Under the pieces are notes generated by a model that was not told the DNA's origin, made no database searches, and saw nothing but the letters and a program-made list of their open reading frames with translations. Positions 22,535 to 38,156 of a stretch of 43,798 nucleotides of DNA are shown piece after piece. How positions within the stretch are numbered: the first letter of the stretch is position 1; each line of letters opens with the position of its first letter. The DNA lies in IMG/VR virus record IMGVR_UViG_3300042564_003607, positions 1 to 43,798 of that record; one strand, given 5' to 3'. The position numbers were made by a program, and so were the translations under genes. This stretch comes from a virus.

Positions 22535-23437
22535 ATGGGTAGAAAACATACAGCAGGAACAGCAGGCGGCTCAGGAGTTGGTGGTTTTAATATAGATAAC
22601 ACCACTCTGAGAGCCGCCGACGATCTGGACATTACCATAGATCCTAGTGGAACTGGTATATTCAAAGTAGATGGTGATGCGCAGTTACAAGCTCAAGGCG
22701 ATCTAAGATTCGCAGATGCAGATAGTTCAAACTGGGTAGCTTTCCAAGCACCAGCTACCGTTACATCAAATGTAACTTGGACACTACCTGCTACAGACGG
22801 CTCAAACACACAGTTGTTATCAACTAACGGAACAGGTACATTAAGTTGGGCCACTGCTGGATTAGCTTTAACAGATAATACTTCTGATGCTGCCTCTCAC
22901 TTTGTAACGTTGACTACAGCTACTTCAGACACCACAATCACAGCAGTGAGACGTAGTTCTTCAAAATTAACTTTCCAGCCCAGCACAGGTATATTAAGTG
23001 TCACTGAGTTAAGAGTAGCAGGACTGGCCACAAGATTAGCAGTAGAAAACGTGCAGTCAAGCAGTTATACATGTGTGCTATCAGACGCTGGAAAAGTTGT
23101 TGTCATGGACAATACCGGCTCAGCAACCATAACTATACCTCCTAACAGCAGTGTGGCTTTTCCTATAGGAACAATAATCAGCATAGCTAGAATCAACACA
23201 GGCAGTGTGGCTCTTACAGCAGGCAGCGGTGTTACTCTCACAGGTAATACTTCTACAGGGGCTATGTTTGCTGGTGAAGAATTAATTTGCAGAAAACGCA
23301 GCACAGACACCTGGTTGGTAATAAGTGGAGCTCCACCAACTGGCTCATTTTCAGCCACGGGTGGAACAGTCTCAACTAGTGGATCTTATAGACTGCATCA
23401 GTTTACCAGTGTCACTAGCTACACGTTCGGACCTTAA
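22535..23437 (+). CDS. Fibre-like structural protein
   Basis: 300 aa. A glycine-rich start (GTAGGSGVGGFNID) leads to a beta stem (DDLDITIDPSGTGIFKVDG), then WVAFQAPATVTSNVTWTLPA, a hallmark of phage fibre shafts, then SSYTCVLSDAGKVVVMDN and PPNSSVAFPIGT, as in many tail-fibre knobs. The end, GGTVSTSGSYRLHQFTS, resembles the start of the glycine-rich protein that follows, as if the two came from one longer adhesin. AGGAG precedes the ATG. It is part of the 22201-24826 unit. Confidence 0.8.
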   Translation: MGRKHTAGTAGGSGVGGFNIDNTTLRAADDLDITIDPSGTGIFKVDGDAQLQAQGDLRFADADSSNWVAFQAPATVTSNVTWTLPATDGSNTQLLSTNGTGTLSWATAGLALTDNTSDAASHFVTLTTATSDTTITAVRRSSSKLTFQPSTGILSVTELRVAGLATRLAVENVQSSSYTCVLSDAGKVVVMDNTGSATITIPPNSSVAFPIGTIISIARINTGSVALTAGSGVTLTGNTSTGAMFAGEELICRKRSTDTWLVISGAPPTGSFSATGGTVSTSGSYRLHQFTSVTSYTFGP

Positions 23438-23456
23438 AAAAGAAACGGAGAAATAT

Positions 23457-24398
23457 ATGCCTTTTATCAGCACAATACGAAGTCAATCAAATGTTCAACA
23501 GCCCGAAAAAGCAATTTCGGAATCTATCTATGAAATCACCGGTGGGGATAAAGTATACACCGCCGGAGGTTATACCATACACATGTTTACCACAGTGGGA
23601 GACCATGAGCTAACGGTCAAAGTCAAAGAAAAATATAAAAATATGGCACACTTAGTTCCTGTAGCAGCAACTTCAGGCACTGTAGAATATCTAGTTATCG
23701 GAGGCGGCGGCAGCGGCGGTATGGGACTAAGCACTAACGGCAATGGCGGAGGTGGTGCAGGAGGATACCTCACAGGTTCTACACCAGTTAGTGGCAGCAT
23801 ACCAGTTACTGTGGGCGGCGGCGCAGGTCCTTATCCCTACAACGGTAGTACTGAAGGATCTTCTTCAAATTTTGGTCCTATACAAGGCGTCTATGGAGGG
23901 CGTGGCGGTTATTACTACGGTTCAGCCGGCGGATATGGAGGCAGTGGAGGTGGATCTGCTGCTGGATACGGTGCAGGTAGCGGAACAGGCGGCCAAGGCA
24001 ATCCTGGTGCACCGGGCGGCTATTATTGGTCAGGCTACGGCGGCGGTGGCGCCAGCCAATCCGGACAAGGCGTTCAAGGTGGATTTGGTACTTCCAGTTC
24101 AATCACAGGTTCTAGTGTAGCCCGAGCAGGTGGAGGTGGAGGTGGAGGAAATAGTTCGGAGTATAGTGGCGACGGAGCCAGCGGTGGCGGCAGAGGTCAC
24201 GGTAGTGCTCCAAATTGGGGCTACAGCTACTACACATACAGTCAAGATCCTCGCGGAGGATGGGGAGTTACTCATGCCTATTCCGCTAATTCTGGGTCAG
24301 GCGGCGGCGCCGGCTCATACTGGGCTCCGAACATTGGTTGGTATCAAGGCGGTGGATATGGTGCACCCGGCCTAGTGGTAGTGAGGTATCCTACCTAA
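23457..24398 (+). CDS. Glycine-rich adhesin-like fibre protein
   Basis: 313 aa. After a 70-residue start (GGYTIHMFTTVGDHELTV) comes about 230 residues dominated by G, S, Y and A, beginning VEYLVIGGGGSGG and ending in YGAPGLVVVRYP. This end motif is common at the C-terminus of glycine-rich phage fibres. Runs of glycine separated by tyrosine loops are reminiscent of the polyglycine-II adhesin gp38 of S16-like T4 phages, which binds the host receptor; that comparison is by pattern only. I chose ATG 23457 over an earlier in-frame ATG because it follows ACGGAG and does not overlap the previous gene. Its stop overlaps the next start (TAATG). Confidence 0.75.
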   Translation: MPFISTIRSQSNVQQPEKAISESIYEITGGDKVYTAGGYTIHMFTTVGDHELTVKVKEKYKNMAHLVPVAATSGTVEYLVIGGGGSGGMGLSTNGNGGGGAGGYLTGSTPVSGSIPVTVGGGAGPYPYNGSTEGSSSNFGPIQGVYGGRGGYYYGSAGGYGGSGGGSAAGYGAGSGTGGQGNPGAPGGYYWSGYGGGGASQSGQGVQGGFGTSSSITGSSVARAGGGGGGGNSSEYSGDGASGGGRGHGSAPNWGYSYYTYSQDPRGGWGVTHAYSANSGSGGGAGSYWAPNIGWYQGGGYGAPGLVVVRYPT

Positions 24399-24844: not shown

Positions 24845-25531
24845 TTATTTGGTGTATGTTATATAGGATTTTTCAGACACATTACCACTAGGTTTAGTAG
24901 ATGCTTTATGTTCTTTTAGAAGTTCTAGACTAGGACCTGAGCCTAGCATGCCCAAAGAATCACGTTTGTCCCATTTCCATTCTGCATTTGGTCCATGAGC
25001 ATCTACATAATGAAAGAAAGCCTGCACTTGCCAAGCATCTTGACCTTTGTCGAAAGGGTCGCGCCAATGAGGCACATCGCATCCTCGATAAATTGCTAGG
25101 TCACCGGGTAGTAGATCTACTCGATTACCGCCCATATATATTGACCAAACGTTGCCAGCGTCGTAATTAAAATTGAAACATAGAGTTGCAGAAATTTCAC
25201 AAGCCGGTCTATCTACATGGGGAGTAAGTTCGTCACCGTTTCTATAAATTCTATAGTAACAATAAGTCGGAAACAAAGAGAACCCCACCGCTTGTTCTAG
25301 CACAGGTTGCAGATGCAACAACATGCTTTCCATTGCAGGATCACAGTATTTTGAATGAGCTTCAGCACACTGAGCTCCGTTGCCCATCATGGCCTTTTCT
25401 GGAGTAAAATCCTGCATTTCGTCAAACAGAGCATATTGAGTGATAAAATCTCTTAGTTCTGTAGAAATAGCCGATCGAACTATACAATAGCCGTTGTTTT
25501 TAAAATCAAATTGAGTAGATAAATTATTCAT
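24845..25531 (-). CDS. 2-oxoglutarate/Fe(II)-dependent oxygenase
   Basis: 228 aa. A double-stranded beta-helix oxygenase: the metal triad is visible as H105-x-D107 (ELTPHVDRP) and H155 (CDVPHWRDPF), with the strand LLPGDLAIYRG before the distal His. The usual 2OG-binding Arg/Lys is not obvious after H155; the segment reads AWQVQAFFHYVDAHGP. Family members hydroxylate protein residues, nucleobases or small molecules; the substrate is unknown. It is the last gene of a five-gene minus-strand operon, 6 nt after the previous stop. It shows little similarity to the other oxygenases here, so it is not a recent duplicate. Confidence 0.8.
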   Translation of the reverse strand: MNNLSTQFDFKNNGYCIVRSAISTELRDFITQYALFDEMQDFTPEKAMMGNGAQCAEAHSKYCDPAMESMLLHLQPVLEQAVGFSLFPTYCYYRIYRNGDELTPHVDRPACEISATLCFNFNYDAGNVWSIYMGGNRVDLLPGDLAIYRGCDVPHWRDPFDKGQDAWQVQAFFHYVDAHGPNAEWKWDKRDSLGMLGSGPSLELLKEHKASTKPSGNVSEKSYITYTK

Positions 25532-25537
25532 AATTGT

Positions 25538-26266
25538 TTATTCCATAATATTTTTTTTAATTTCACGAATTATATGTTTATGTATTTTAGAGGCACGGAA
25601 TATATTATACAATTTTTTAAGATTTTTTTCGCGCCAATAAAATTTTAATCTTATACAACTTATTGATGCATCGAACAATTCATCGGTAAGACGAAATCTT
25701 TTCAGGACGATTTTTTCATCACTAGGAAAATTTACGTAAAGTAAAGGATCGCCTTGATTAACTTTGAACTCTCGCACATTGGGCCAACCTTGAAAAGCGT
25801 ACTCTAATGGCCTAAACCATGAACTTATATTCATATTACCAGGCACATAATATCCATAATTATTTATAGGACTATGATGCAAGAATGGATGTCTTGTTTC
25901 TATTTCTTGATTGTGTTCGCTAAAAAAAATCCAATTAGCACCTAAATTTATAGTATATGAATCTAACATAGACGGAGGTTTTACTGTAGGAGTAAGATAA
26001 CCTAGCATTTGTTTTTCAGCTGCTGTGTCTATAATTGTATTTCCGTGAACTTCGACAGCACAGTTGGTTGGACTGGAAAGAAGAAATGTGTTTTTGATTG
26101 AATTAATAAATGCAGGACAATTAATAAAATTATCACGGTTATTTTCTCTCTGAATTTTTTTTGTCATGTCTGTTAGCACACTCACCGGAGGTTGAAATGC
26201 CAAAAACATGGCTGCACGCTCGGCAGCTGAGTCATTCCAAGGACTGTAATACACTGTTTGACTCAT
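25538..26266 (-). CDS. Uncharacterised protein, member of a three-copy family
   Basis: 242 aa. It shares a layout with the proteins at 26267 and 36210: a CP(A/G) dipeptide in the first third, a central aromatic strand (ANWIFFSEHNQEIETRHPF), an NISSWFRPLEYAF strand and REFKVNQGDPLLYVNFPSD, equivalent to the GTPLAQLIAVP turn of the 36210 protein. Identity is low, so the relation is by pattern. It resembles a family of about 230-260 aa I have seen as a domain of unknown function (DUF6065-like) in marine phages and bacteria. The ATG follows the previous stop without a gap, with GGGGAG upstream. Confidence 0.7.
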   Translation of the reverse strand: MSQTVYYSPWNDSAAERAAMFLAFQPPVSVLTDMTKKIQRENNRDNFINCPAFINSIKNTFLLSSPTNCAVEVHGNTIIDTAAEKQMLGYLTPTVKPPSMLDSYTINLGANWIFFSEHNQEIETRHPFLHHSPINNYGYYVPGNMNISSWFRPLEYAFQGWPNVREFKVNQGDPLLYVNFPSDEKIVLKRFRLTDELFDASISCIRLKFYWREKNLKKLYNIFRASKIHKHIIREIKKNIME

Positions 26267-27058
26267 TTATTCTCCCCGATGAAAAGGACAACCACTTGCT
26301 TGTTGTTCTATTTTTTCATGTAGTCTTTTTTTGTTGCTATAAAGCTGAGTAGAATCACGATATTGATCTCTCCGCATAACAAATTTATCAATGCCAAATA
26401 TTCTTTGATATTCGGGAAGCGTGACCAAATGTTGCACAATTTTGATCTTCTTTTCAGTCATAGGATGCAAAATAGCCAGCGGAGTTAACGGCATAATAGT
26501 ACAACTTTGCCGTTGTTCAGTCTGTTTTACAAATAGATTGATTTCAGTAGCATGAGTATATTTATAGTTAACTAGACCGGGTAATACTGATATAATTCCA
26601 TGTGTGTCTTGCATATTCCATAGCGGTTCGGTCCAAGTAAAATTTATGTTTTCTTTGGTCTTGATTGCCCACGGAGAAATGAGTTTTACATTATGACCAT
26701 GCTGGCCAGCAAAGCCAGGAAATTGCACACCTGGATGATTAGTGGGGGTAGAAACGTCCCCGTTAGAACTCACCCATTCCCACTCTCGTTCAGATCCTAT
26801 GGGATTTACAATCATATCCATTTCAAACCATGCAGGAATAGCTATGCCTTTTTTATAGTATTCTATAACTGCGTTACAATGTTTTAAGGTTACCAAAGGT
26901 GGATCAGAGTCTGGAACTTTTGATGGTAACTGTTTCCACCAATCTGGAACATATTTCATTGCCCAGTCAATTTTAGCGTAGTCGTAGGCATGTGCGAGAT
27001 GAGTAAAGCAGTCTAACACCACTTCTTTTTGTCTGGTAAAAAAATATGGAAATTTCAT
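26267..27058 (-). CDS. Uncharacterised protein, three-copy family, DUF6065-like
   Basis: 263 aa. The recognisable frame is WWKQLPSK near residue 40, then IPAWFEMDMIVNP, VKLISPWAIKTKENINFTW, SVLPGLVNYKYTHATEINLF, and MPLTPLAILHPMTEKKIKI. These parallel segments of the 36210 protein (VVRAWQDIYIKTG, KFITGWCCKIPNDYMLIQTP, GINNINVPVFW, GTPLAQLIAVP). No catalytic triad or nucleotide site is seen. The C-terminal tail (about 50 aa) is basic and ends in SGCPFHRGE. Its ATG overlaps the preceding oxygenase stop by 4 nt (ATGA). It is co-expressed with three oxygenases, so a shared substrate or complex is possible. Confidence 0.7.
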   Translation of the reverse strand: MKFPYFFTRQKEVVLDCFTHLAHAYDYAKIDWAMKYVPDWWKQLPSKVPDSDPPLVTLKHCNAVIEYYKKGIAIPAWFEMDMIVNPIGSEREWEWVSSNGDVSTPTNHPGVQFPGFAGQHGHNVKLISPWAIKTKENINFTWTEPLWNMQDTHGIISVLPGLVNYKYTHATEINLFVKQTEQRQSCTIMPLTPLAILHPMTEKKIKIVQHLVTLPEYQRIFGIDKFVMRRDQYRDSTQLYSNKKRLHEKIEQQASGCPFHRGE

Positions 27059-27723
27059 AATAGTATTTGTCTCGATGCAGGAATGGGAAAATAATCAGAA
27101 CTTACTTCTTGGATAAAAAATACCTGTGTGAGCCTAGGCCTGTTATCGTGACCTATAAATTTATTTACACCGTGATACTGAGACCCGTCATAGGCAATAA
27201 TTCTATTGTAGATATTTTTAAAATTCACTGTTTCTTCAAATAGACTGTTGTTTTTTTCTAGCTTTTCATTGTAGAAATCAGTTTTAGATCTATCAAAATT
27301 TAAAAACATATCTTGTTTTTCTTCTAGATTGATAGGCATGTCAAATGGGTTTTTTGGTCTAAACAACGATGTGCCGCAGCTCGTATCTATACCGGGAGTG
27401 AGATATATCACTCCAGCATACGGCCTATAGTCTGCATGAATCCAACCTTGGTTGATTGATGAGTATTGATCTGGTTCTACAATTTGGAAGTAGGTTTCTA
27501 CAGCCCATTTAACACTGCTGGTTTTTTTAAAATCAAAGGTCAAGGAAAAAAATTTATCGCAGAAATTTTTAAAAAATACAGGATTTACAGAATCTAGAGA
27601 AGGCGATCTTTTGCCGGGCCATGGCATATTAGAAGTTGCTTTGAATTCCAAAGACAAAGCAAATTCTCTAATTACATCTGGATTATTATAAAAATTGTCT
27701 ACACACAAAGAGGGAAAATACAT
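27055..27723 (-). CDS. 2OG/Fe(II) oxygenase-like protein (DUF6445-like)
   Basis: 222 aa. H96-x-D98 (QGWIHADYRPYAGVIYLTP) is the proximal pair; H184 (DGSQYHGVNKF) is the distal ligand and R197 (RPRLTQVFF) fits the 2OG-binding Arg. N-terminal YFPSLCVDNFYNNPDVIREF, 'the date of the fish', is typical of a family of phage and bacterial 2OG-like proteins (DUF6445-like). Substrate unknown. It is second in the operon, starting 1 nt after the previous stop and overlapping the next ATG by 4 nt. Confidence 0.8.
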   Translation of the reverse strand: MYFPSLCVDNFYNNPDVIREFALSLEFKATSNMPWPGKRSPSLDSVNPVFFKNFCDKFFSLTFDFKKTSSVKWAVETYFQIVEPDQYSSINQGWIHADYRPYAGVIYLTPGIDTSCGTSLFRPKNPFDMPINLEEKQDMFLNFDRSKTDFYNEKLEKNNSLFEETVNFKNIYNRIIAYDGSQYHGVNKFIGHDNRPRLTQVFFIQEVSSDYFPIPASRQILL

Positions 27724-27724
27724 A

Positions 27725-28354
27725 TTATATTTCTCTGTCCTTGATCCACGTTACCATACTGTATTTTGTGCCAGATGTTACTGGATGCGCAATGTGTAGA
27801 TAAGCATAGTTGGACGGAAACAAAACTAACATTCCGGGTTCGGGTTTAATTTTCACGTGAAAATTAGGAAACTCTAATTCACCGCCTTCAAAATCGTCGT
27901 TTAGATAGCACAAGCAAGATATTGATCTTCCCATTGGGGTCCCACCGTCATAATGACCTTTGTATTCTTCGCCTTGATCATATTTTAACATCTGGTAATG
28001 TTCGTGCCAAAGAGTTTCCTTGATATTAAATCTTTTAGCATAGGGAATTGATGCTGCTAACAACAACATATAGAACTGGTTATGGACATTTTGTAATACA
28101 GCGTTATTGGTAATTCCTGCTAGATGAGTGACACCCATCATTTTGTTTGTTCTATAAGTTTGATTTGCCCCTTCCTGAGTGGTTTCGGCTCGTTGCCAAT
28201 GCACTCCAGAATTCAAATCGCTGGCAGCATTCTCAACCATCTTGATAGTGTTCTCTGGATTCGGCCAAGCATTTTCGTAAATGGCAATACAGCCTCCTAT
28301 TATAGTGCTGGGTTGCAATTCCCCAGGAAAAAAATTGTTTATTACCACGGTCAT
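27725..28354 (-). CDS. Prolyl-4-hydroxylase-type 2OG/Fe(II) oxygenase
   Basis: 209 aa. A clean P4H-alpha-type domain: Y125 and GHYDGG give H134-x-D136, then CYLNDDFEGGELEFP, PEPGMLVLFPS, distal H187, and PVTSGTKYSMVTWI, where K197 would bind the 2OG carboxylate. All catalytic residues are present, so it should be active. Phage members of this family are common, but their substrates (protein proline, nucleobase or metabolite) are mostly unknown. It is the first gene of the minus-strand operon, with AAAGGA upstream of the ATG and a TTAAATA box 25 nt before it. Confidence 0.9.
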   Translation of the reverse strand: MTVVINNFFPGELQPSTIIGGCIAIYENAWPNPENTIKMVENAASDLNSGVHWQRAETTQEGANQTYRTNKMMGVTHLAGITNNAVLQNVHNQFYMLLLAASIPYAKRFNIKETLWHEHYQMLKYDQGEEYKGHYDGGTPMGRSISCLCYLNDDFEGGELEFPNFHVKIKPEPGMLVLFPSNYAYLHIAHPVTSGTKYSMVTWIKDREI

Positions 28355-28378
28355 ATTGTTTATCCTTTTTACACTAGC

Positions 28379-28384
28379 TATTTA
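28379..28384 (-). promoter_or_regulatory. Late promoter box (TTAAATA) for the oxygenase operon
   Basis: On the minus strand CTTAAATAG precedes the first oxygenase gene; predicted start near 28373, leader about 19 nt with an AAAGGA ribosome site. It is back-to-back with the plus-strand box at 28405. Confidence 0.55.
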
Positions 28385-28404
28385 AGACTGAAACAAAATT
28401 ATTT

Positions 28405-28412
28405 CATAAATA
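28405..28412 (+). promoter_or_regulatory. Late promoter box (CATAAATA), leaderless type
   Basis: Six nt separate the box from the ATG at 28419, so the expected start falls at the start codon. No ribosome site. Confidence 0.55.
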
Positions 28413-28418
28413 TTGATT

Positions 28419-28763
28419 ATGCCCACACGTTTTATTTCCAGTGACGAAATTTTCAACCACAAATTTGATAAGAATTATTGTCAACATATTTCGCCTAAAA
28501 ACTTGCAAACTACTGCGGATCCCAGGGTTGCAGACATAGAAGTTTGGGAAGAAATATATTTTAAACCAGGTGTAATAGGAGTATATGCCGCCTGGGATCC
28601 ATACTGTGAATTTTATCTTGTGTATTACCCTGTTTTGTCAGAAACAAATTTTCATTCATTGACTTTTTTTGGAGAAGATGCGTCGAACAAAGTGCAGAAA
28701 TTACTTGCAAAATATGATATACAGCTTGTTACTAACAATATATGGGTAGATGAAACTAACTAA
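28419..28763 (+). CDS. Small protein of a paired family (copy B)
   Basis: 114 aa, unknown function, paralogous to the protein at 24398 through its central block (ADIEVWEEIYFKPGVIGVYA, then AWDPYCEFYLVYYP) and WVDETN at the end. The two copies bracket the minus-strand oxygenase operon. I chose ATG 28419 over a TTG two codons earlier because the promoter box would place the mRNA end at this ATG. It overlaps the convergent gene at 28756 by 8 nt. Confidence 0.75.
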   Translation: MPTRFISSDEIFNHKFDKNYCQHISPKNLQTTADPRVADIEVWEEIYFKPGVIGVYAAWDPYCEFYLVYYPVLSETNFHSLTFFGEDASNKVQKLLAKYDIQLVTNNIWVDETN

Positions 28764-28983
28764 ATTTCAGTGAAAATGTCAATTGATCAAAACTATTTGG
28801 AAATTCAATGTAACTCCAGTCTTTAGAAATCGTTGATTTAAATTCAGTTTGCCAAAGTTGCCTAATTACAGATTGATCAACAACAGATAATTGGTTTTGA
28901 TTTTCTATAAGATATTCTAAAGCCTTTAGAAAAATAGAACTCACAGAAAAGTCATCTTGTATTATTTTGATAGTACCTGTCAT
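28756..28983 (-). CDS. Small hypothetical protein
   Basis: 75 aa, no recognised family. Predicted helix in the middle (IFLKALEYLIENQNQL) and two tryptophans (RQLWQTEFKS, KDWSYIEFP). The start is supported by a minus-strand TAAATA box 4 nt upstream of the ATG; there is no ribosome site. The 3' end overlaps the convergent gene by 8 nt. The gene is short and weakly supported, but it fills the space between two real genes. Confidence 0.55.
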   Translation of the reverse strand: MTGTIKIIQDDFSVSSIFLKALEYLIENQNQLSVVDQSVIRQLWQTEFKSTISKDWSYIEFPNSFDQLTFSLKFS

Positions 28984-28987
28984 TGTA

Positions 28988-28993
28988 TATTTA
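28988..28993 (-). promoter_or_regulatory. Late promoter box (TAAATA), leaderless type
   Basis: AATAAATA on the minus strand, 4 nt before the ATG at 28983. It is back-to-back with the plus-strand box at 29017. Confidence 0.45.
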
Positions 28994-29016
28994 TTGACAC
29001 ATAGATGACATTTTTC

Positions 29017-29024
29017 AATAAATA
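29017..29024 (+). promoter_or_regulatory. Late promoter box (AATAAATA)
   Basis: One mismatch to TATAAATA. The predicted start is near 29030, 17 nt before the ATG at 29047. It would exclude the earlier in-frame ATG at 29005, which lies upstream of the box. Confidence 0.55.
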
Positions 29025-29046
29025 CTTTACTAATATAAAAACACCA

Positions 29047-30555
29047 ATGGCCAAAATAACCGTATCTGACGCAATAAGAATAATTCCTAGAGAAGCTGAA
29101 TTTCTAAACAGAAAGTCAGGTCTACGAGGTGAAATTTTCTACGATCAAGCAGCTAACACTCTTAGAATTTATAACGGATCTACCGTTGGTGGACTAAATT
29201 TAGCCAGGGGCGATTTAGCCAATGTTTCCGAAACAGACTTTGTGAGTCTAGCCAGTAGCTCTAGACTGTTTGGTCCAAATATTCACATACATAATACTGT
29301 TGTAAATAGCAATTTGATTTCGGGCGACAAAGACTATGTAACATTTACAGTGGGTACAAATGATATTACAGCATTGTATCTAACAAAGTACGTAGGGGTT
29401 GACCTAAAAGCATTCTTTGCTATTCAACAAGGCACAGCATGGACTGCTGGTCAAGATGTAAATCAAATGTTAACCTACGGACATCTTGGTCCATGGGACC
29501 CATCGCTTGCTGTTGGAAGTAACGTATTAGCCGGCAACCCATTGCATCCCGGTGCTGTCACATTGGCAGCAAACACTACATATACTGTGTGGATTCAGCA
29601 AACCGGATCAAACATTACAGAATATGCCCTTAGCACAAATCCTTATTGGGTACCGGCAACCGCAGATCTTCCTGCAGACTATTCAGGTGACCCTTTAGCA
29701 CCTACAGTGTTATATCAAGACGGGGCAGGCCAGGCCAGCGGAGGAACTAGTGTATCTGTAGATGACACAGCGCCGAGTTCCCCCAGTCCAGGCAATCTTT
29801 GGTTAGATACCAACACTGGTATACTGTATGTTTATTTTGATGACGGTGATTCTGAACAGTGGATCCAGCCGGTATTTCCCTATCCTGATACCACAAATTT
29901 AGCCACTACATCCTACGTGGATTCTACTGTGGCAGCACTGCCGGCTACGGCAGGATTGGCCACAACATCATTTGTAACCTCGGCTGTGTCAGCTGGAGCA
30001 TTTGTATTAAATATTCAAGCAGATGACTCTACAACAAGATCTATCTCAACTGGCAGCACAGTGCAATTTAACGGGTCAGGCGGCATTACTACAACTACTG
30101 ATAGTTCGGGTAATGTCACTATCATCGGCGGAGGCACCACAGGCAATGTTACTTTTGCTGTGACTACCATAGATTCATCTGATTCTTCCGCTATAATATT
30201 TACGCCCGCAGTGATTTATGAATCAGATGTCACAGTGCAAAATAATCTTGTGATAGATAACAGTGTCAACGTTGCATTGGATCTGTCAGTAAATAATCGA
30301 TTGACTGTGAAAGACATCATACTGACTGGCAATTTTTCAAGTCAGGGATCTGGAACACCTGAACTATTTTCAGATAATGAAATACAATTAACAGCTGGTA
30401 CCCGTGTAGAGATAACAGCAAGTCCTTTGAAAATGGCATCTTTCACATCTGGGGCAAGAGATCTGTTAACGGCTGTTAACGGTGATATGATCTATAACAC
30501 CACAACAAATAAGTTTCAAGGACGTGCCGGCGGCGCTTGGGTAGATCTGCATTAA
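29047..30555 (+). CDS. Tail-fibre-like structural protein
   Basis: 502 aa. The N-terminus MAKITVSDAIRIIPREAEFL is followed by SGLRGEIFYDQAANTLRIYN, an attachment-like module. Around residue 240 is SPSPGNLWLDTNTGILYVYF, a fibre motif, then LATTSYVDSTVA repeats (a fibre hinge element), a beta stem (VQNNLVIDNSVNVALDLSVN), and a terminal MIYNTTTNKFQGRAGGAWVD, a version of the RYNT/W motif. The start is chosen at 29047, not the in-frame ATG at 29005, because the late promoter box at 29017 would remove the upstream start from the mRNA. It is followed 3 nt later by the protease. Confidence 0.75.
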   Translation: MAKITVSDAIRIIPREAEFLNRKSGLRGEIFYDQAANTLRIYNGSTVGGLNLARGDLANVSETDFVSLASSSRLFGPNIHIHNTVVNSNLISGDKDYVTFTVGTNDITALYLTKYVGVDLKAFFAIQQGTAWTAGQDVNQMLTYGHLGPWDPSLAVGSNVLAGNPLHPGAVTLAANTTYTVWIQQTGSNITEYALSTNPYWVPATADLPADYSGDPLAPTVLYQDGAGQASGGTSVSVDDTAPSSPSPGNLWLDTNTGILYVYFDDGDSEQWIQPVFPYPDTTNLATTSYVDSTVAALPATAGLATTSFVTSAVSAGAFVLNIQADDSTTRSISTGSTVQFNGSGGITTTTDSSGNVTIIGGGTTGNVTFAVTTIDSSDSSAIIFTPAVIYESDVTVQNNLVIDNSVNVALDLSVNNRLTVKDIILTGNFSSQGSGTPELFSDNEIQLTAGTRVEITASPLKMASFTSGARDLLTAVNGDMIYNTTTNKFQGRAGGAWVDLH

Positions 30556-30558
30556 GCT

Positions 30559-32589
30559 ATGGAAAAAAAATATTATCAATTGGCAACTCATACTGAAGCA
30601 GAATGGGATGAACTAAATGTAGAATTAACAGGTCCGGGTCAAGTCAGTGAATATGTGCCCGACAGAGCTGTAGACTGTGTAGATGACCAATTACACAGTT
30701 TGACTCGAGGCACGTATCTACTCACTGATACCGAAGCAGAGCAGTTAAAAAACGATCCAAGAATAAAATTCATCAACATAGACTACAAACGATACGCTGA
30801 ATTCACACCCCCGCCTGACGAACTGCACTCAGTAAGACCAGATTTAGTAAACAGATATACTGCTGCGGTGAAAAATTACAGAGAATTTTCTGTTACCAAC
30901 ACACTGGCAGTAACGCCCGATACTTCAGATGTCAACAGAACCGGATATCAGCTTTATAGATGCACACAGAAATTAGATCCTTGGGTAGATGCTGCACTGG
31001 CAGACAATTCAGTGGTCAATACCAATATTCCACAATACGGCACGGGCAAGCACGTGGATGTCATAGTTGCAGATGACGGTACCTGGATCGGCCATCCAGA
31101 ATTTCAAAGCAATTCTCTGTCTAATTCTAGTCCGTTCGCAGCCGTGCCAAACCCTATCGGCTACGTTGGCGGCAATGTTCTACCAGGCAACGGCACCTGT
31201 GATTTGTTAGATCTAGTCCTAGATTCTCCATATTACATAGATCCTGATTGGTTTGATGCTGATCCTGCTACAAGATTAACAACAAGATGGGACGGAACTA
31301 CAGTGCCGGTTGAATCAGTGGCTAGATCTTGGTGGTCTGACAACTCCTTGCGCAGTACACAGTTTGCAAATGCAGGCACAGTGAGTGTTACTGCGTTGTA
31401 TACCAGGGCAAACTGCAATGGCAATAACGCTGCAATATCTAATGAAGGCGATCACGGCACCTGTTGTGCCGCACTTACCTACGGAAGAACACAAGGGTGG
31501 GCATATAACTCTAACAAATGGGTATTAGATCTCTACGGCGCTTTAGGGATAGGCATAGAACAGGGCTTTGATCTGATGAAAATATTTCATACTGTGAAAC
31601 CAGTGAATTCTCTTTTCAATACTAGAAATCCCACAATAACAAGCAATAGTTGGGGCTATCGATCCGACAAAGCTCCTGGCGGAGCAACATATTATTACAC
31701 TCATAGATCAACCAGTAACACCGCTTATACCACCGAAACAGGAATAAATTGGCTGAGCCATATGGGTACACAGGGTGATTCCGGCCGCTGGAAAAGTGAA
31801 ATGAAAACAAATTCATTCACTACAGCACAAGATGAATTAATTGCTGCTGGAGTGATTTTTGTTGCGGCTTCTGGTAACAGCAATCAAAAACAGGTCAACA
31901 GTAGTCATCCGGACTATAACAATTTTATTACCATTATCAATGGCGGGCCTCTAGCTACCTCTAATTTCTCCGAGTTCGGACTTGGGGTATTTGGGACAAC
32001 AAATCGCCGGGGATTCCCTCAACAAGGCGGCAAATACACCGATGCCAATGGCACCGTAATTTATCCTGTGATCAATATAGGTGCATTAGATGATGATTAT
32101 AAAACTTCAAAAGAAGCCAAAGTTTCTTACAGCGATAGAGGAAACAGCATAGACGTCTATGCCCCTGCAGATGGCACCTTGGCAGCTAATAGAGGCTATG
32201 CCACAAACTGGCCAAGACCCGATACCTATGCTGCTCTCAGCTACAGTTCTGGGAACACCACTGACGCTGCCTTTAGCGGCACTAGTGCTGCCTGTCCTGT
32301 GGCCACAGGACTTATAGCCACAGTGTTAGAGTGGAATAGAGACTGGACCTGGGTGGAAGTCAAAGCATGGTTACAATCTTTAGAAACGCAGGACGCTGCT
32401 GATTTTTACTTTGGCACGGAATCAACCACAGTCAATACTGCGAATTGGTTAGACTACGAAAGCCTCGAAGGCGGCGATGCTCGAGTGCTTTATCAAGGGC
32501 AGATTGACGCTAGATTTAGATCAGGAACAAGAAAAATCTTATCCAATCTTAGAATCACTAGTGGTTTAAAACTAAGATTAGGTCGTTGA
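30559..32589 (+). CDS. Subtilisin-like serine protease (peptidase S8) with propeptide
   Basis: 676 aa. A complete subtilase triad: D172 (VIVADDGTW), H299 (GDHGTCC) and S576 (SGTSAACP), with the oxyanion Asn as N440 (AASGNSNQ). Residues 1-100 look like an I9-type inhibitory propeptide (RGTYLLTDTEAEQL). The Asp-His spacing (127 residues) is much longer than in subtilisin, so an extra domain is inserted. The C-terminal 50 residues (SLEGGDARVLYQGQ.., RITSGLKLRLGR) resemble a virion-attachment tail. There is no signal peptide. It sits between two fibre genes and could mature fibres or degrade surface proteins or capsules. The substrate is unknown. Confidence 0.9.
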   Translation: MEKKYYQLATHTEAEWDELNVELTGPGQVSEYVPDRAVDCVDDQLHSLTRGTYLLTDTEAEQLKNDPRIKFINIDYKRYAEFTPPPDELHSVRPDLVNRYTAAVKNYREFSVTNTLAVTPDTSDVNRTGYQLYRCTQKLDPWVDAALADNSVVNTNIPQYGTGKHVDVIVADDGTWIGHPEFQSNSLSNSSPFAAVPNPIGYVGGNVLPGNGTCDLLDLVLDSPYYIDPDWFDADPATRLTTRWDGTTVPVESVARSWWSDNSLRSTQFANAGTVSVTALYTRANCNGNNAAISNEGDHGTCCAALTYGRTQGWAYNSNKWVLDLYGALGIGIEQGFDLMKIFHTVKPVNSLFNTRNPTITSNSWGYRSDKAPGGATYYYTHRSTSNTAYTTETGINWLSHMGTQGDSGRWKSEMKTNSFTTAQDELIAAGVIFVAASGNSNQKQVNSSHPDYNNFITIINGGPLATSNFSEFGLGVFGTTNRRGFPQQGGKYTDANGTVIYPVINIGALDDDYKTSKEAKVSYSDRGNSIDVYAPADGTLAANRGYATNWPRPDTYAALSYSSGNTTDAAFSGTSAACPVATGLIATVLEWNRDWTWVEVKAWLQSLETQDAADFYFGTESTTVNTANWLDYESLEGGDARVLYQGQIDARFRSGTRKILSNLRITSGLKLRLGR

Positions 32590-32595
32590 TAAATA
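32588..32595 (+). promoter_or_regulatory. Late promoter (GATAAATA) overlapping a stop codon
   Basis: It overlaps the TGA of the protease gene; start expected near 32601, 13 nt before the ATG at 32614. Confidence 0.65.
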
Positions 32596-32613
32596 TTTTA
32601 CAGAGATTAAAAA

Positions 32614-34260
32614 ATGCCTATAAATTTTCCTAATAGCCCAACACTCAATCAGGTCTATACTATCGATCAAAAATCGTGGCGATACAACGGCACTGCTTGG
32701 AATGTGATCAGCAGTGGATTTGATTTCTCAACCTCACCTAGTTTTACCAACTTAGTAGTGTCAGGACAACCAACTGTGATAGCAGACACTGCCACAGACA
32801 CACTGACATTGGTAGCAGGATCCGGTATTGCTATCACAACCAATGCAGCCACAGATACTATAACTTTTACTTCCGTGGCTTCTACTGGCAATATCACTAT
32901 TGTAGGCACAACTCTTAACGTTACCAATGCCAATCCTATAACCATAACTCCTAACTTAGTGTTAGGTGGTACTTTGAGATTCCCAGATAACACTGTTCAA
33001 ACCACAGCCACCGTGCAAGGACCAGCAGGACCAGAAGGCCCACCTGGTGCAAGTGGTAGCGGTTCAGGCGATGTAAATTCTGTGTTAGGTAGCTATGTTG
33101 ATAATGCCATAGTTAGATACAGTGGCACTAGCGGCACAACTATCAAAGTCAGCTCAGCCAGTATTAACGATGCAGGATTACTTACTGCCACTAACTTTAG
33201 CGGCGGTGGAGCAAGTCTTACTGCACTCAATGCTACTGAACTTACGTCAGGCACTGTGCCTGATGCACGATTTCCAGCCACGCTACCTGCAAGCTCGGGT
33301 GCGAATCTCACTGCACTCAATGCCAATCAGTTAACCAGCGGCACTGTGCCTGATGCACGTTTTCCGGCCACACTACCAGCTGCCAGCGGTGTAAATCTCA
33401 CTGCTTTAAATGCTACAAATCTAGGCAGCGGCACTGTTCCAGTTTTGAGATTAGGCGCATCAGGCACAAGAGATGCTACCACATATCTAAGAGGCGACAA
33501 CACCTGGGCTGCAGGCTCTGGAGGAGGTGATAGTTTTTCTACCATAGCTGTTGCAGGGCAATCTAGTGTTGTAGCAGATTCAGCCACAGACACACTGACC
33601 CTAGTGGCAGGTTCAAACATTACTATAACCACAGATGCCGGCACAGACACTATAACTATTGCTGCTGCGGGCGGCGGAACAGCATCTGATAGTTTTGCTA
33701 CTATAGCTGTCGCAGGACAGAGTTCAGTTATAGCAGATTCAGCCACAGACACTCTTACTATAGCCGCAGGCACAGGAATCTCAATAACTACGGATTCTGG
33801 CACAGACACAGTGACTATTGCTAGCACAGTCAGCGCCGGTGCTACAGCGTTTACAGGACTAAGTGATCGTGCAGATCTTACCATAGACCAATTTTATCTA
33901 CCAGCTATCACAAGACTTAATGTGACCAATAATGGAGCAACAGCATATAGATTTGATCAATACGGAACCACTGACGATCCCACAATATATGCTATAAATG
34001 CTACCACCATAGCCTTCAATCTCAATGTGATGGGCCACCCTTTCTTAATACAGGATAATACAGGCGCAAATTATAACACTGGGTTAGTACACGTTACCAC
34101 AGGGGGTTCTGTATCTACAGGCTCGTCTGCTCAAGGTCAAACATTGGGCACATTGTATTGGAAGATTCCGGATTCAATTTCTGGTAATTACAGATATCAG
34201 TGTAGTATTCATGGTAGCATGATTGGAACTATTACTATCAAGAATTTTGCCACTATTTAA
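32614..34260 (+). CDS. Tail fibre with collagen-like, tandem-repeat and cupredoxin domains
   Basis: 548 aa. In order: an N-terminal attachment (PINFPNSPTLNQVYTI; SWRYNGTAWNV), a beta repeat VIADTATDTLTLVAGSGI, a short collagen-like triplet run (GPAGPEGPPGASG, about residue 135), three repeats of LTALNA..LTSGTVPDARFPATLPA, two further copies of the TIAVAGQSSV.ADSATDTLT repeat, and a C-terminal domain from about residue 430. That domain reads as a type-1 copper protein: H475 (GHPF), then C530, H533 and M536 (YQCSIHGSMIG), preceded by a YWKIP strand. The full ligand set suggests a real copper site at the fibre tip. Confidence 0.85.
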   Translation: MPINFPNSPTLNQVYTIDQKSWRYNGTAWNVISSGFDFSTSPSFTNLVVSGQPTVIADTATDTLTLVAGSGIAITTNAATDTITFTSVASTGNITIVGTTLNVTNANPITITPNLVLGGTLRFPDNTVQTTATVQGPAGPEGPPGASGSGSGDVNSVLGSYVDNAIVRYSGTSGTTIKVSSASINDAGLLTATNFSGGGASLTALNATELTSGTVPDARFPATLPASSGANLTALNANQLTSGTVPDARFPATLPAASGVNLTALNATNLGSGTVPVLRLGASGTRDATTYLRGDNTWAAGSGGGDSFSTIAVAGQSSVVADSATDTLTLVAGSNITITTDAGTDTITIAAAGGGTASDSFATIAVAGQSSVIADSATDTLTIAAGTGISITTDSGTDTVTIASTVSAGATAFTGLSDRADLTIDQFYLPAITRLNVTNNGATAYRFDQYGTTDDPTIYAINATTIAFNLNVMGHPFLIQDNTGANYNTGLVHVTTGGSVSTGSSAQGQTLGTLYWKIPDSISGNYRYQCSIHGSMIGTITIKNFATI

Positions 34261-34324
34261 TTTTTCTGTACTCTAGCTAGTCTATATTACTCGGCCAGAA
34301 TACTTACTGACCTAAAGATACTGT

Positions 34325-34332
34325 ATTAAATA
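34325..34332 (+). promoter_or_regulatory. Late promoter box (ATTAAATA)
   Basis: It lies 17 nt before the ATG at 34350. The 64 nt upstream of it (34261-34324) show no further feature. Confidence 0.45.
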
Positions 34333-34349
34333 CTTGTTACAGTAGAATT

Positions 34350-34949
34350 ATGACTCCACAAATTATTCCAATTTTTCCTGCAGCTATCTATAGAATTAAT
34401 CTTAGAAAGTTATCAGCAACCGAACGCACAGCGTTCGACACCAATACCGTAACTGCTGTAAATAGACAAGGCAATCAGACATCTGTTAATTCCTCTTTAC
34501 TTGATGACACCGTATTTTTAGATTTGAAAAACATATTCATGGAACACGTTCACAATTATGCTCGAGAAGTGATCAAAACAGACTGCCAATTTTATATGAC
34601 AAATTCTTGGAAAAATCAAAATAAAAAAGGTCAGCCACATGATTTGCACAATCACAGAAACAGCGTGATTTCAGGAGTATACTATGTGAATGTTGCAGAC
34701 AGTGAAAATTCTATTTGTTTCAACAGACTGACATCACCGTTTTTCATGGAGTTTGAGTGCAGCGAGCGCACCCCATTTAACAGCATAGAATGGCAAATTC
34801 CTGTTGAAGATGCAATGTTAATACTTTTTCCTTCCAGTCTCTATCACAGTGTGCCTGTAAATACCACAAACAATGAACGATTGAGTATTTCTTTTAATAC
34901 TTTTATCAAAGGAAATTTCAATAATAACACTCTTGTGATCAGTGCATAA
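34350..34949 (+). CDS. 2OG/Fe(II) oxygenase-like protein (PF13759-like, copy 1)
   Basis: 199 aa. It follows the 2OG-FeII_Oxy_5 plan: an aromatic strand (YMTNSWKNQ), then H100-x-H102 with NSVISGVYYV, MLILFPSSLYH with H166, and R177 (ERLSISFNTF) in the place of the 2OG-binding Arg. The proximal motif is HxH, as in this family, not HxD. Three further members lie downstream (35612, 36938, 37470). The substrate is unknown. The N-terminal IIPIFPAAIYRINL is a signature shared with the member at 37470 (VIPLFPTPLFVAEI). Confidence 0.8.
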   Translation: MTPQIIPIFPAAIYRINLRKLSATERTAFDTNTVTAVNRQGNQTSVNSSLLDDTVFLDLKNIFMEHVHNYAREVIKTDCQFYMTNSWKNQNKKGQPHDLHNHRNSVISGVYYVNVADSENSICFNRLTSPFFMEFECSERTPFNSIEWQIPVEDAMLILFPSSLYHSVPVNTTNNERLSISFNTFIKGNFNNNTLVISA

Positions 34950-34957
34950 TATAAATA
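34950..34957 (+). promoter_or_regulatory. T4-type late promoter (TATAAATA)
   Basis: Exact consensus, directly behind the previous oxygenase. It serves the rubrerythrin-like gene, with ribosome site GGAG at 34981. Confidence 0.8.
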
Positions 34958-34993
34958 CACTATATAATTTCAACTATTTAGGAGTTAATTTAC

Positions 34994-35581
34994 ATGAATA
35001 CAATATTGCCAGTACCAGCCCCAGAAGGCTACCAAGAACCATTAGTTGCACCTCCACCTCCACCTCCAGACCTTGATCCAAATACGCCGTTGGCTATCCC
35101 AGTAGCATTAGACAGCAAAACAGCAGCTAATCTCAAACTAGCGTTTGCTGCAGAGGCACGATCTAATGATAGATATCACTATTTTGCCACCATAGCTGAA
35201 AAACATAAAGATGCAAATGCCGCAGCTTATTTTAAAAAAATTGCTGAAGACAAACACATGTTTGCTCAAGGACATATAAAAGAAGCCATATTGGGTGGGT
35301 TAGGAGATCCGGATACCGGAAAGCCATCTGCGCATATTACCCAGGTATTAGAAACTGCAATTGCTTCTGAAATGCAAGCATCGGCTGAGATGTATATAAA
35401 ATATGCAGACGAGGCTCGAGTAGAAAAGTTACCACATTTAGCAGAATGGTTTACTGAATTATCAAGAAGAGCAGCTTCCCATAAAAAATCATTTGAAGAC
35501 CTATTAAGATACTACGATTCTGACCCATCAAAATTTTACGATTCTGACCTACCGAATCCAGAACTTCGCGCGGATTGGTGA
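34994..35581 (+). CDS. Rubrerythrin/ferritin-like diiron protein
   Basis: 195 aa. Residues 1-38 are a proline-rich linker (a run of six prolines), then a four-helix bundle: helix 1 FAAEARSNDRYHYF (E54), helix 2 KKIAEDKHMFAQGH (E85-x-x-H88), helix 3 ETAIASEMQASAEMY (E120/E126), helix 4 EWFTELSRRAASHKK (E151/E155, H163). The first half-site matches rubrerythrin (E and ExxH); the second ExxH is not intact, so the site may be altered. No rubredoxin (CxxC) domain follows. Relatives detoxify peroxide or store iron. Here it may protect or supply the neighbouring Fe(II) oxygenases. Its promoter is late type. Confidence 0.8.
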   Translation: MNTILPVPAPEGYQEPLVAPPPPPPDLDPNTPLAIPVALDSKTAANLKLAFAAEARSNDRYHYFATIAEKHKDANAAAYFKKIAEDKHMFAQGHIKEAILGGLGDPDTGKPSAHITQVLETAIASEMQASAEMYIKYADEARVEKLPHLAEWFTELSRRAASHKKSFEDLLRYYDSDPSKFYDSDLPNPELRADW

Positions 35582-35597
35582 AGCTGCGGGCGGGTTA

Positions 35598-35603
35598 TAT
35601 AAT
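35598..35603 (+). promoter_or_regulatory. Sigma70-like -10 box (TATAAT) before the 35612 oxygenase
   Basis: Perfect TATAAT with a weak -35 (TTGGTG at 35575, spacing 17). The ATG at 35612 lies 8 nt after the box, so the message would have almost no leader. Confidence 0.45.
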
Positions 35604-35611
35604 CTGTTTGC

Positions 35612-36166
35612 ATGAATCAAATAGACTTAAATCTACCAATATTTATACACCAAGGTTTAAAATCTTATCCAATTGATTGGATGAAGACTCGGGTGTTAGC
35701 AGCACACCAAACGGCTGATTATACAATCGGAAACAATTTTCAAATCAAAGATTCTTCCGGTGTGTTTTATACCTTATACAAAGATTTTTTTCGTATTGCC
35801 AATCAGCATTTTGGTCCACTAGAACTAGATCAAAGAAATCTTGCTAGCTGTTGGGGTTATGTAACGAATAAATTTTTTTACAAAGGCGGTATCCATAATC
35901 ACCTAAATACCTGTGTAATTAATGCTGTTTACTATTTGAATATACCCGAAACTACAGACACACATCAGGGTTCTTTGAGTTTTTATAACAATAATTTTCA
36001 AGAAGTTTATAATATAAGACCCGAAGTTGGTGATTTGATTATTTTCCCCAGTTATCTTAATCATCAACCCCATCAATCATTCTCGTTGGATTATCGAATT
36101 TCTATCAACATGGAAATTATTTGTCAAAATGTCTGGGGCGTTGATAACAACTTTGTTTTGAGTTAA
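35612..36166 (+). CDS. 2OG/Fe(II) oxygenase-like protein (PF13759-like, copy 2)
   Basis: 184 aa. CWGYVTNKFFYKGG leads to H95-x-H97 (IHNHLNTCVINAVYYLN), followed by GSLSFY, PEVGDLIIFPSYLNH with H151, and R162 (DYRISINMEI). The spacing is as in the gene at 34350, but overall identity is low, so this is an old duplicate or an independent acquisition. It starts 30 nt after the rubrerythrin stop and has a TATAAT box 8 nt upstream and no ribosome site. Confidence 0.75.
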   Translation: MNQIDLNLPIFIHQGLKSYPIDWMKTRVLAAHQTADYTIGNNFQIKDSSGVFYTLYKDFFRIANQHFGPLELDQRNLASCWGYVTNKFFYKGGIHNHLNTCVINAVYYLNIPETTDTHQGSLSFYNNNFQEVYNIRPEVGDLIIFPSYLNHQPHQSFSLDYRISINMEIICQNVWGVDNNFVLS

Positions 36167-36173
36167 TGATTGC

Positions 36174-36202
36174 TTGTAAAATCTATGTCAGTGTGTTATA
36201 AT
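36174..36202 (+). promoter_or_regulatory. Sigma70-type promoter with extended -10
   Basis: -35 TTGTAA (36174-36179), 17-nt spacer, -10 TATAAT (36197-36202) preceded by TGT, which makes an extended -10 (TGnTATAAT). Predicted start near 36209, next to the ATG at 36210. It is the best host-type promoter in the oxygenase block. Confidence 0.65.
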
Positions 36203-36209
36203 CAAAGAC

Positions 36210-36938
36210 ATGATTGCACAAAAGATTATATTTTATCCCACTATACCTGGTATCGATAAGACAATGCCTATTTTATCTGCTGATAAAATTGTACATAATT
36301 GGAAACAGGAAGCAGCCAGAGAATTTAAAAATCAAAAAAATAATCTCGGCCATACTATACATAGTATTTCTAATTGTCCTGGAATCAATACTCTACAGAG
36401 CCAAGGATATGTAGTGCGGGCGTGGCAAGACATCTATATCAAAACAGGCTCACTACACGATAAAATACAATGGCATACTCCTATTGATCAGCAGAAAATT
36501 AACGGCAGTCCGGCAATTGAAGAACATCAGGACAGTCTGTTTAAAACATTTCAACACTGGCCGCACCACTCTAGTCGATCTGTAATAAAGTTTATAACCG
36601 GCTGGTGCTGTAAGATTCCAAATGATTATATGTTGATACAAACTCCTGTGTTTTATGCAGATGACAATCGATTCACTGCGCTAAGTGGAATTTATTCGAG
36701 TGACTACGGAATCAATAATATCAATGTTCCGGTATTTTGGCATAATCTCAACGAAGAAACAGTGATCAAAGCTGGTACTCCTCTTGCGCAATTAATTGCA
36801 GTTCCTAAAGACTCTTTGGAATTAGAAATCAGAACTGATATTGACAAAGAAGAGTTAACGATAAATTATATATTGATGAACAATACTTTCGTAAGAAATT
36901 ATGCCAAGATCAAATCATTTTTTCAGAGGAATCACTAG
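36210..36938 (+). CDS. Uncharacterised protein, third member of the DUF6065-like family
   Basis: 242 aa. Core segments: SNCPGINTLQSQGYVVRAWQ, IKFITGWCCKIPNDYMLIQT, PVFYADDNRFTALSGIYSSD, NNINVPVFWHN, and VIKAGTPLAQLIAVPKDSLE. This is the clearest version of the family; the minus-strand copies at 25538 and 26267 are more divergent. No enzyme motif is recognised. It begins a short plus-strand operon with two oxygenases, and its TAG stop overlaps the next GTG start by 1 nt. All three copies sit next to oxygenases. Confidence 0.7.
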   Translation: MIAQKIIFYPTIPGIDKTMPILSADKIVHNWKQEAAREFKNQKNNLGHTIHSISNCPGINTLQSQGYVVRAWQDIYIKTGSLHDKIQWHTPIDQQKINGSPAIEEHQDSLFKTFQHWPHHSSRSVIKFITGWCCKIPNDYMLIQTPVFYADDNRFTALSGIYSSDYGINNINVPVFWHNLNEETVIKAGTPLAQLIAVPKDSLELEIRTDIDKEELTINYILMNNTFVRNYAKIKSFFQRNH

Positions 36939-37459
36939 TGCAAAGTACATTATTTGAAACAAAATTTTATGGATATTATATTAATGATTGGGAATTAAAG
37001 AAAGAAAAAATTTCGAAAAAAATTAATATTACATCATTGATAAAAAAACCTGATCAATTGTTCACAAGCGATCGAGGTAATAACACCTATCAGTCTGAAT
37101 TTGTTGAAATTTTTAAGAATGAATTGTCACTATTTTCAAATGAAATTAAAGTAGACTCATTAGATATAGGCGACGTATGGACAGTATCTTATGCAAAAGG
37201 AGATTTTCATATCCCTCACAATCATTCGAGTGTGGGATATTCCGGAATCATATATTTAGATTACAATGAAACCTTACACAGTCCAACTTATTTCATTAAT
37301 CCTACAAATGACCCTATAACCGATCAAACAGAAATAAAAAAAATAGAAGCCAGTGAAGGCTTAATGATTATTGTACCGAGTAATATTTTACATTACACGT
37401 TGCCTAATAATTCACACACAATCAAAACTATAATTGGCTTTGATTTAAAATTTAAATAA
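36938..37459 (+). CDS. 2OG/Fe(II) oxygenase-like protein (PF13759-like, copy 3)
   Basis: 173 aa, with a GTG start overlapping the previous stop by 1 nt (TAGTG) and AGAGGA upstream. The sequence has VWTVSYAKGDFHIPH then H94-x-H96 (HNHSSVGYSGIIYL), a hydrophobic strand, IIVPSNILHYTLP with H152, and TIKTIIGFDLKF, where a Lys stands in place of the usual 2OG-binding Arg. Base composition is AT-rich compared with the fibre genes, suggesting a separate origin. The reduced length and the missing Arg leave activity open. Confidence 0.7.
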   Translation: MQSTLFETKFYGYYINDWELKKEKISKKINITSLIKKPDQLFTSDRGNNTYQSEFVEIFKNELSLFSNEIKVDSLDIGDVWTVSYAKGDFHIPHNHSSVGYSGIIYLDYNETLHSPTYFINPTNDPITDQTEIKKIEASEGLMIIVPSNILHYTLPNNSHTIKTIIGFDLKFK

Positions 37460-37469
37460 GGCGTTTTTG

Positions 37470-38156
37470 ATGACCTACGAAGTTATTCCGTTATTTCCAA
37501 CTCCATTATTTGTTGCAGAAATACAAGGATTTACCAACGAAGAATTAGAATTTGTAAAACAATCATCTTTATACGCTCGATACAAAGATGAACCAGGAAG
37601 ACTTGTAGGATCGGATAGATTTGATATTATACATTTACCTGAAATGTCAAGAGTGTGTAATTTTGTGCAAACACAGTTGAATCTATATGCTCAAGAGATA
37701 ATGTCTATATCTAATCAGTTGTTTCCTACTATCAGTTGGCTGAATCGCACCTCAACAGGAGCATATCATTATCAACATCATCATGTAAACAGCATTGTCA
37801 GCGGAGTTTTATATTTCACAGAGGATCCTGCCCCTATCGAATTTCACACAGATAAGAATTGCGTCTGGCATCCATTAAAGATGTTCCCTACCAAATATAA
37901 TCAATATAATACTCACAGCACCACAGTTGAAATTAAACAAGGAACATTATTGATGTTTCCGTCCTACCTAGAACATTCTGTAATGAGATCAATAGCTGAG
38001 ACCGATAGGATAAGTTTATCTTTTAATACCTGGATAGACGGGACCATAGGCCTATTAGATAAGACTAGTTTTCTAAATTTAGATGCGCCAACATTAAAAT
38101 TTGAACCCAAAGATAACTTGAATGTGTTGATAGAAAGACAAAGATTACAAAAATAA
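37470..38156 (+). CDS. 2OG/Fe(II) oxygenase-like protein (PF13759-like, copy 4)
   Basis: 228 aa. VIPLFPTPLFVAEI near the start, then AYHYQHHHVNSIVSGVLYF (H103-x-H105), GTLLMFPSYLEHSV with H169, and R180 (DRISLSFNTW). It is longest of the four by a C-terminal extension. The start is placed at ATG 37470; a TTG one codon earlier is less likely. A TTAAATA sequence overlaps the stop of the previous gene, 11 nt upstream of the ATG, and could be a weak late box. The gene ends 54 nt before the convergent minus-strand unit. Confidence 0.75.
   Translation: MTYEVIPLFPTPLFVAEIQGFTNEELEFVKQSSLYARYKDEPGRLVGSDRFDIIHLPEMSRVCNFVQTQLNLYAQEIMSISNQLFPTISWLNRTSTGAYHYQHHHVNSIVSGVLYFTEDPAPIEFHTDKNCVWHPLKMFPTKYNQYNTHSTTVEIKQGTLLMFPSYLEHSVMRSIAETDRISLSFNTWIDGTIGLLDKTSFLNLDAPTLKFEPKDNLNVLIERQRLQK

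Follow-up and report, generated by a model that had tools for sequence, protein, structure and literature searches.

Positions 24845–38156 of the IMG/VR record IMGVR_UViG_3300042564_003607 hold a cluster of oxygenase genes, here called an oxygenase island, from a large marine T4-like phage. The window, i.e., the whole stretch of DNA that was analyzed, is 43,798 nt of this record. The island consists of four kinds of non-heme iron dioxygenase and two genes of family phrog_7084, and it wraps around tail-fibre genes. An initial annotation of this DNA had listed seven open reading frames (ORFs) as putative Fe(II)/2-oxoglutarate (2OG) oxygenases, and all seven are present where it placed them. The genes are as follows, with the putative metal ligands given by residue number.

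24845..25531, minus strand: phrog_2954 protein (labeled 'ferrochelatase'), predicted oxygenase fold, H105-x-D107...H155
25538..26266, minus strand: phrog_17480 protein, otherwise found in the nearest relative only
26267..27058, minus strand: phrog_7084 companion protein, copy 1
27055..27723, minus strand: DUF6445/phrog_1644 oxygenase (labeled 'minor coat protein'), H96-x-D98...H184...R197
27725..28354, minus strand: prolyl 4-hydroxylase (P4H)-type 2OG-Fe(II) oxygenase, PF13640, H134-x-D136...H187...K197
29005..30555, plus strand: tail-fibre-like protein, between the two oxygenase blocks
30559..32589, plus strand: subtilase (PF00082), likewise between the blocks
32614..34260, plus strand: p32614, a baseplate wedge/tail-fibre connector-like protein; a short part of it, GPAGPEGPPGASGSG, is collagen-like
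34350..34949, plus strand: PF13759 oxygenase, H100-x-H102...H166...R177
34994..35581, plus strand: rubrerythrin-like protein without a rubredoxin domain
35612..36166, plus strand: PF13759 oxygenase, H95-x-H97...H151...R162
36210..36938, plus strand: phrog_7084 companion protein, copy 2
36938..37459, plus strand: PF13759 oxygenase, H94-x-H96...H152...K163
37467..38156, plus strand: PF13759 oxygenase, H104-x-H106...H170...R181 (TTG start at 37467; an ATG at 37470 is also possible)

Families, metal ligands and fold of the seven proteins

Six of the proteins match Pfam families above the curated cut-off. The sequence at 27725–28354 matches PF13640 (E = 6.6e-17), the four genes starting at 34350, 35612, 36938 and 37467 match PF13759 (E = 8.9e-22, 5e-10, 2e-8 and 2.2e-20, respectively) and 27055–27723 matches DUF6445 (E = 9.1e-14). 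The double-stranded beta-helix fold is thus assigned to five proteins by Pfam 2OG models. For the two genes with no oxygenase Pfam match, 24845–25531 (phrog_2954) and 27055–27723 (DUF6445), structure models were made, and the fold is assigned by AlphaFold and Foldseek.

The iron ligands are HxD...H in three proteins and HxH...H in the four PF13759 proteins. The HxH ligands are invariant in all 115 HxH-type relatives in which those columns are present. A three-His site is typical of the PF13759 family, and HxH is also found in the solved structures 2rg4 and 3bvc (PF13759/TIGR02466), to which 34350–34949 has sequence similarity (E = 1e-7), although the solved proteins are bacterial. An Arg or Lys is found 10–13 residues past the distal His in six of the seven proteins, the exception being phrog_2954.

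These data make it very probable that all seven are oxygenase-fold proteins. The sub-types, the two blocks and the late/tail setting described in the initial annotation are upheld, and the profile search and structure check left no group of the seven outside the oxygenase fold. The low mutual identity it described is also confirmed: the four HxH proteins are 18–24% identical to each other, compared with 84–95% for orthologues in close relatives, which rules out recent duplication as the origin of these four genes.

The phrog_2954 family is very probably not a ferrochelatase

The protein at 24845–25531 falls in phrog_2954 (E = 3.8e-44 in PHROGs), a family that carries a ferrochelatase label. 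The gene was termed 'Hyp. with ferrochetalase domain' in PMC3037559 and the label was reused in PMC9599517 and PMC11561400; the latter treats phrog2954 as a ferrochelatase auxiliary metabolic gene that is enriched in seasonal phages. This published usage is what favors a true ferrochelatase, one that would provide the adjoining oxygenases with haem or iron chemistry, an explanation that is extremely improbable on the evidence found here. Ferrochelatase family models are not matched: 13 phrog_2954 members gave no Pfam match of any kind, and the window protein gave none in NCBIfam. An AlphaFold2 model based on an alignment of 51 window or viral-contig sequences has a mean predicted local distance difference test (pLDDT) score of 87. 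Its best matches in the PDB are the P. putida prolyl hydroxylase structures 4j25 and 4iw3 (E = 2e-11 to 6e-10; 2.1e-11 for 4j25), followed by PHD2 and SnoN/SnoK. Each of the 50 top-ranking fold matches in the PDB is a 2OG-type oxygenase or related to one, and none has the ferrochelatase fold. In addition, HxD...H is invariant in 51 of 51 sequences, and there are fusions to 2OG domains.

The genomic setting of phrog_2954 shows the same association. At 70 of 80 phrog_2954 loci another oxygenase-fold ORF is present within 1.5 kb, and the density of such ORFs is 0.69/kb near the loci compared with 0.06/kb more than 3 kb away, an 11-fold difference. Six distinct ORFs encode phrog_2954 and a PF13640 domain as one fused protein. 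The simplest reading of this adjacency and fusion is a two-domain oxygenase that is either split or fused. PMC9599517 reports that the pelagiphage 'ferrochelatase' is always next to an oxygenase. The same two adjoining families are present here, but the 'ferrochelatase' of the window is itself a predicted oxygenase fold, and such a fold accounts for the family adjoining, or fusing to, an oxygenase. A related arrangement is seen in contig L194:4702-6672, where a single ORF encodes a flavin-dependent tryptophan halogenase (PF04820) with a C-terminal phrog_2954 domain.

One property of the family stands against its reading as an ordinary 2OG oxygenase. Prolyl 4-hydroxylases (Bacillus 3itq/5hv0, P. 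putida 4j25/4iw3 and chlorella virus 5c5t) resemble 27725–28354 in sequence (E = 1e-8) and 24845–25531 in fold, but phrog_2954 lacks their usual Arg or Lys that binds the 2OG carboxylate and has an invariant Q170 at +15 from the distal His. The invariant residues R94, R108 and R157 are possible stand-ins. The family may have an unusual cosubstrate site, or it may serve as a non-2OG partner domain. An iterative profile search linked phrog_2954 to P4H, but this link is not counted here, as such searches can drift through fused proteins. In a profile-profile comparison phrog_2954 and DUF6445 did not match each other, so the shared fold rests on structure models; PDB sequence profiles gave no useful match for phrog_2954, DUF6445 or phrog_7084. 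Overall, phrog_2954 is almost certainly another oxygenase family, and we are highly confident that it is not a ferrochelatase. No paper describing it as an oxygenase-fold protein or a two-domain partner was found in open-access text.

The DUF6445 protein and misleading PHROG labels

The AlphaFold2 model of the DUF6445 protein (12 sequences) also has a mean pLDDT of 87. In a PDB fold search it matches PHD2, HygX and OGFOD1, with E values of 1e-5 to 5e-5 and TM-scores of just ~0.5, and the iron ligands are invariant in the alignment. PHROG family phrog_1644, to which the protein belongs, is labeled 'minor coat protein', whereas sequence and fold indicate an oxygenase with a full HxD...H...R. The protein may still be located in the virion. 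Three PHROG labels are misleading with respect to the oxygenase fold: 'ferrochelatase' (phrog_2954), 'minor coat protein' (phrog_1644) and 'DNA endonuclease V' (phrog_274). For phrog_2954 and phrog_1644 this was examined with structure models, and the phrog_274 label appears misleading because window oxygenases match that family.

Companion genes

Members of phrog_7084 occur 13 times in 23 other records, and each of the 13 has an oxygenase-fold locus no more than 0.9 kb away (distances read by hand). The family has two copies in the window and is found in the searched phage records only beside oxygenase clusters. One copy has a weak dUTPase-like similarity (E = 0.019).

Of 10 tryptophan halogenase islands, 8 have an oxygenase gene at a distance of at most 1.5 kb, compared with 2.8 expected by random placement (p = 0.0006), in a count that covers eight related genomes that are not phylogenetically independent. 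Up to four halogenase genes are present in runs among the oxygenase clusters of contigs L101, L103, L194 and L196 and at 156–159 kb in P-RSM6. None is present in the window or in its 281-kb relative.

The rubrerythrin-like protein at 34994–35581 matches a ferritin-like diiron domain (PF02915, E = 1.4e-11); there is no C-terminal rubredoxin domain and there are zero cysteines in the translation. The initial annotation had suggested that this protein and the oxygenases make up an iron- and oxygen-dependent modification system. Such a system remains plausible, but the rubrerythrin is linked to the oxygenases in close relatives only. The better-supported companions are phrog_7084 and, in many relatives, the flavin-dependent tryptophan halogenases. 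Within the scope searched, phrog_2954 as an oxygenase-fold family, a recurring island with phrog_7084 and the presence of halogenases next to islands beyond chance look new.

Conservation in relatives and neighboring genes

IMG/VR contig 3300042907_001080 (281,658 bp) shares the seven oxygenase-fold genes and their order with the window, and its capsid protein is 89% identical to that of the window. Between the window and this contig plus two other relatives, the seven oxygenase-fold genes show 78–98% identity, and their ratios of nonsynonymous to synonymous substitution rates (dN/dS) are 0.04–0.31. This purifying selection excludes chance ORFs. The 281-kb contig has nine oxygenase-fold loci within 55.3–66.0 kb and five elsewhere (merged by hand). 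Contig 3300042892_004349 has even the phrog_17480 gene in common with the window. In the 281-kb relative both blocks stay beside the tail gene p32614; in two contigs that are more distant, this holds for the left block.

The major capsid protein (window positions 696–1871) is closest, among named phages, to those of jumbo T4-like phages, i.e., Sinorhizobium phage Phosso (71% identity) and Vibrio 2.275.O. (70%). A phage genome of at least 280 kb is therefore the probable source of the 43.8-kb window, which would be a fragment of it. Elsewhere in the window, positions 14336–22180 encode a 2614-aa tail fibre with four chitin-binding-type carbohydrate-binding modules (PF02839), and positions 23325–24398 encode a glycine-rich protein similar to polyglycine tail-tip adhesins. 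The subtilisin-like protease at 30559–32589 has a counterpart in cyanophage S-SSM7 and is absent from the examined part of the 281-kb relative.

Frequency of oxygenase clusters

The initial annotation considered seven such genes in 13 kb to be unusual. This is not borne out. Loci were counted with four profiles (phrog_81, PF13640, phrog_1644 and phrog_2954), and a few counts are inflated by split matches. The window has 7 loci, HTVC008M 19, P-SSM2 23, P-RSM6 19, S-SSM7 25, S-SCSM2R 15, Sf-CH3 14 and Mosig 12. The maximum per 13.3 kb is 10 in IMG/VR 3300022937_000008, 8 in P-RSM6 and 7 in each of the window, P-SSM2, Sf-CH3 and 3300022923_000005; across HTVC008M, P-SSM2, P-RSM6, S-SSM7 and Sf-CH3 it ranges from 6 to 8. 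T4 and the T4-like jumbo phages Phosso, Vibrio 2.275.O. and 121Q have at most one locus each. The compared records were picked as relatives or query matches, so the counts are not population frequencies. In the literature, numerous such oxygenases were noted in 14 of 16 cyanophages (Sullivan et al. 2010, PMC3037559), and S-SCSM1 has 24, with a top mutual identity of 44% (PMC9602691, 2022). Such gene crowds are routine in relatives, and the island recurs in other marine phages. Marine T4-like cyanophages and pelagiphages (S-SCSM1, P-SSM2, S-SSM7, P-RSM6, HTVC008M) resemble the window in having many divergent, low-identity oxygenases per genome, from the same Pfam and PHROG families and often in tandem. 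The window differs from the cyanophages in its capsid protein, which is closer to the capsid proteins of Sinorhizobium, Vibrio and enterobacterial T4-like jumbo phages (66–71% identity) than to those of cyanophages.

Possible function of the island

The function preferred here, as a tentative proposal, is a late hydroxylation of phage proteins, with tail-fibre or adhesin chains as the most likely substrates, because the position beside tail-fibre genes is conserved in relatives and because of the closeness to protein prolyl hydroxylases. The nearest structures are the P. putida EF-Tu prolyl hydroxylase, PHD2 and the Bacillus P4H. The oxygenases would be made late together with the tail genes and would hydroxylate amino acid side chains of phage proteins with O2 and 2OG; the phrog_2954 protein would act together with the P4H-type enzyme, as its partner domain. 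Similar islands adjoin tail-fibre genes in S-SSM7, Sf-CH3 and P-RSM6. Several points count against the proposal. The late timing is read from gene position only. The basic residue that normally binds 2OG is missing in phrog_2954. In P-SSM2 much of the oxygenase cluster lies among replication genes, which rules out a tail-fibre linkage that is general to all such clusters. The collagen-like p32614 was considered as the obvious P4H substrate and rejected, as the stretch has only five GXY triplets and is missing in distant relatives that retain the P4H gene.

A different possibility is a natural-product-like pathway in which the island acts on a small molecule, glycan or peptide rather than on a virion protein, its tail-side position being incidental. 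The non-random placement of halogenases by related islands, the halogenase-phrog_2954 fusion ORF and the natural-product enzymes HygX, SnoN and SnoK among the fold matches are consistent with it. This is nonetheless rather unlikely, as halogenases are absent from both the window and the 281-kb relative, and no genes for synthetases, ligases or transport were noticed in the island. Modification or repair of DNA or nucleotides by TET/JBP- or AlkB-like enzymes is improbable. The sequence at 27725–28354 is weakly Tet_JBP-like (E = 0.023) and a DNA-repair role was suggested in PMC3037559, but the best matches are to P4H, PHD2 and PF13759 and not to TET or AlkB, the genes are in the tail region, and no DNA-modification partner genes were seen in the window. 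Sullivan et al. 2010 put forward for cyanophages that the enzymes lower or sense the host 2OG pool and thereby alter nitrogen regulation. That proposal depends on the cyanobacterial NtcA, and seven divergent enzymes with separately conserved active sites would be a poor means to burn one metabolite; it is considered quite improbable for this island.

Late hydroxylation of phage proteins can be extended to a broader and more speculative model, which is unlikely to hold in full: a mobile oxidative-tailoring island, made up of phrog_2954, DUF6445, P4H-type and HxH-type oxygenases, phrog_7084 and often halogenases, that hydroxylates and halogenates phage adhesion proteins, with the viral 'ferrochelatases' as part of it.

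Significance for marine phages

These oxygenases number in the dozens in marine phages. The recurrence of the island, together with phrog_7084 and halogenases, is a pointer to a shared pathway that can be tested. The predicted fold of phrog_2954 corrects an annotation that at least two recent papers have used as evidence of viral haem and iron metabolism. If the broader model is true, the island would represent a chemistry of virion maturation that has not been described before, and the viral 'ferrochelatases' that marine surveys list among the haem genes would belong to it.

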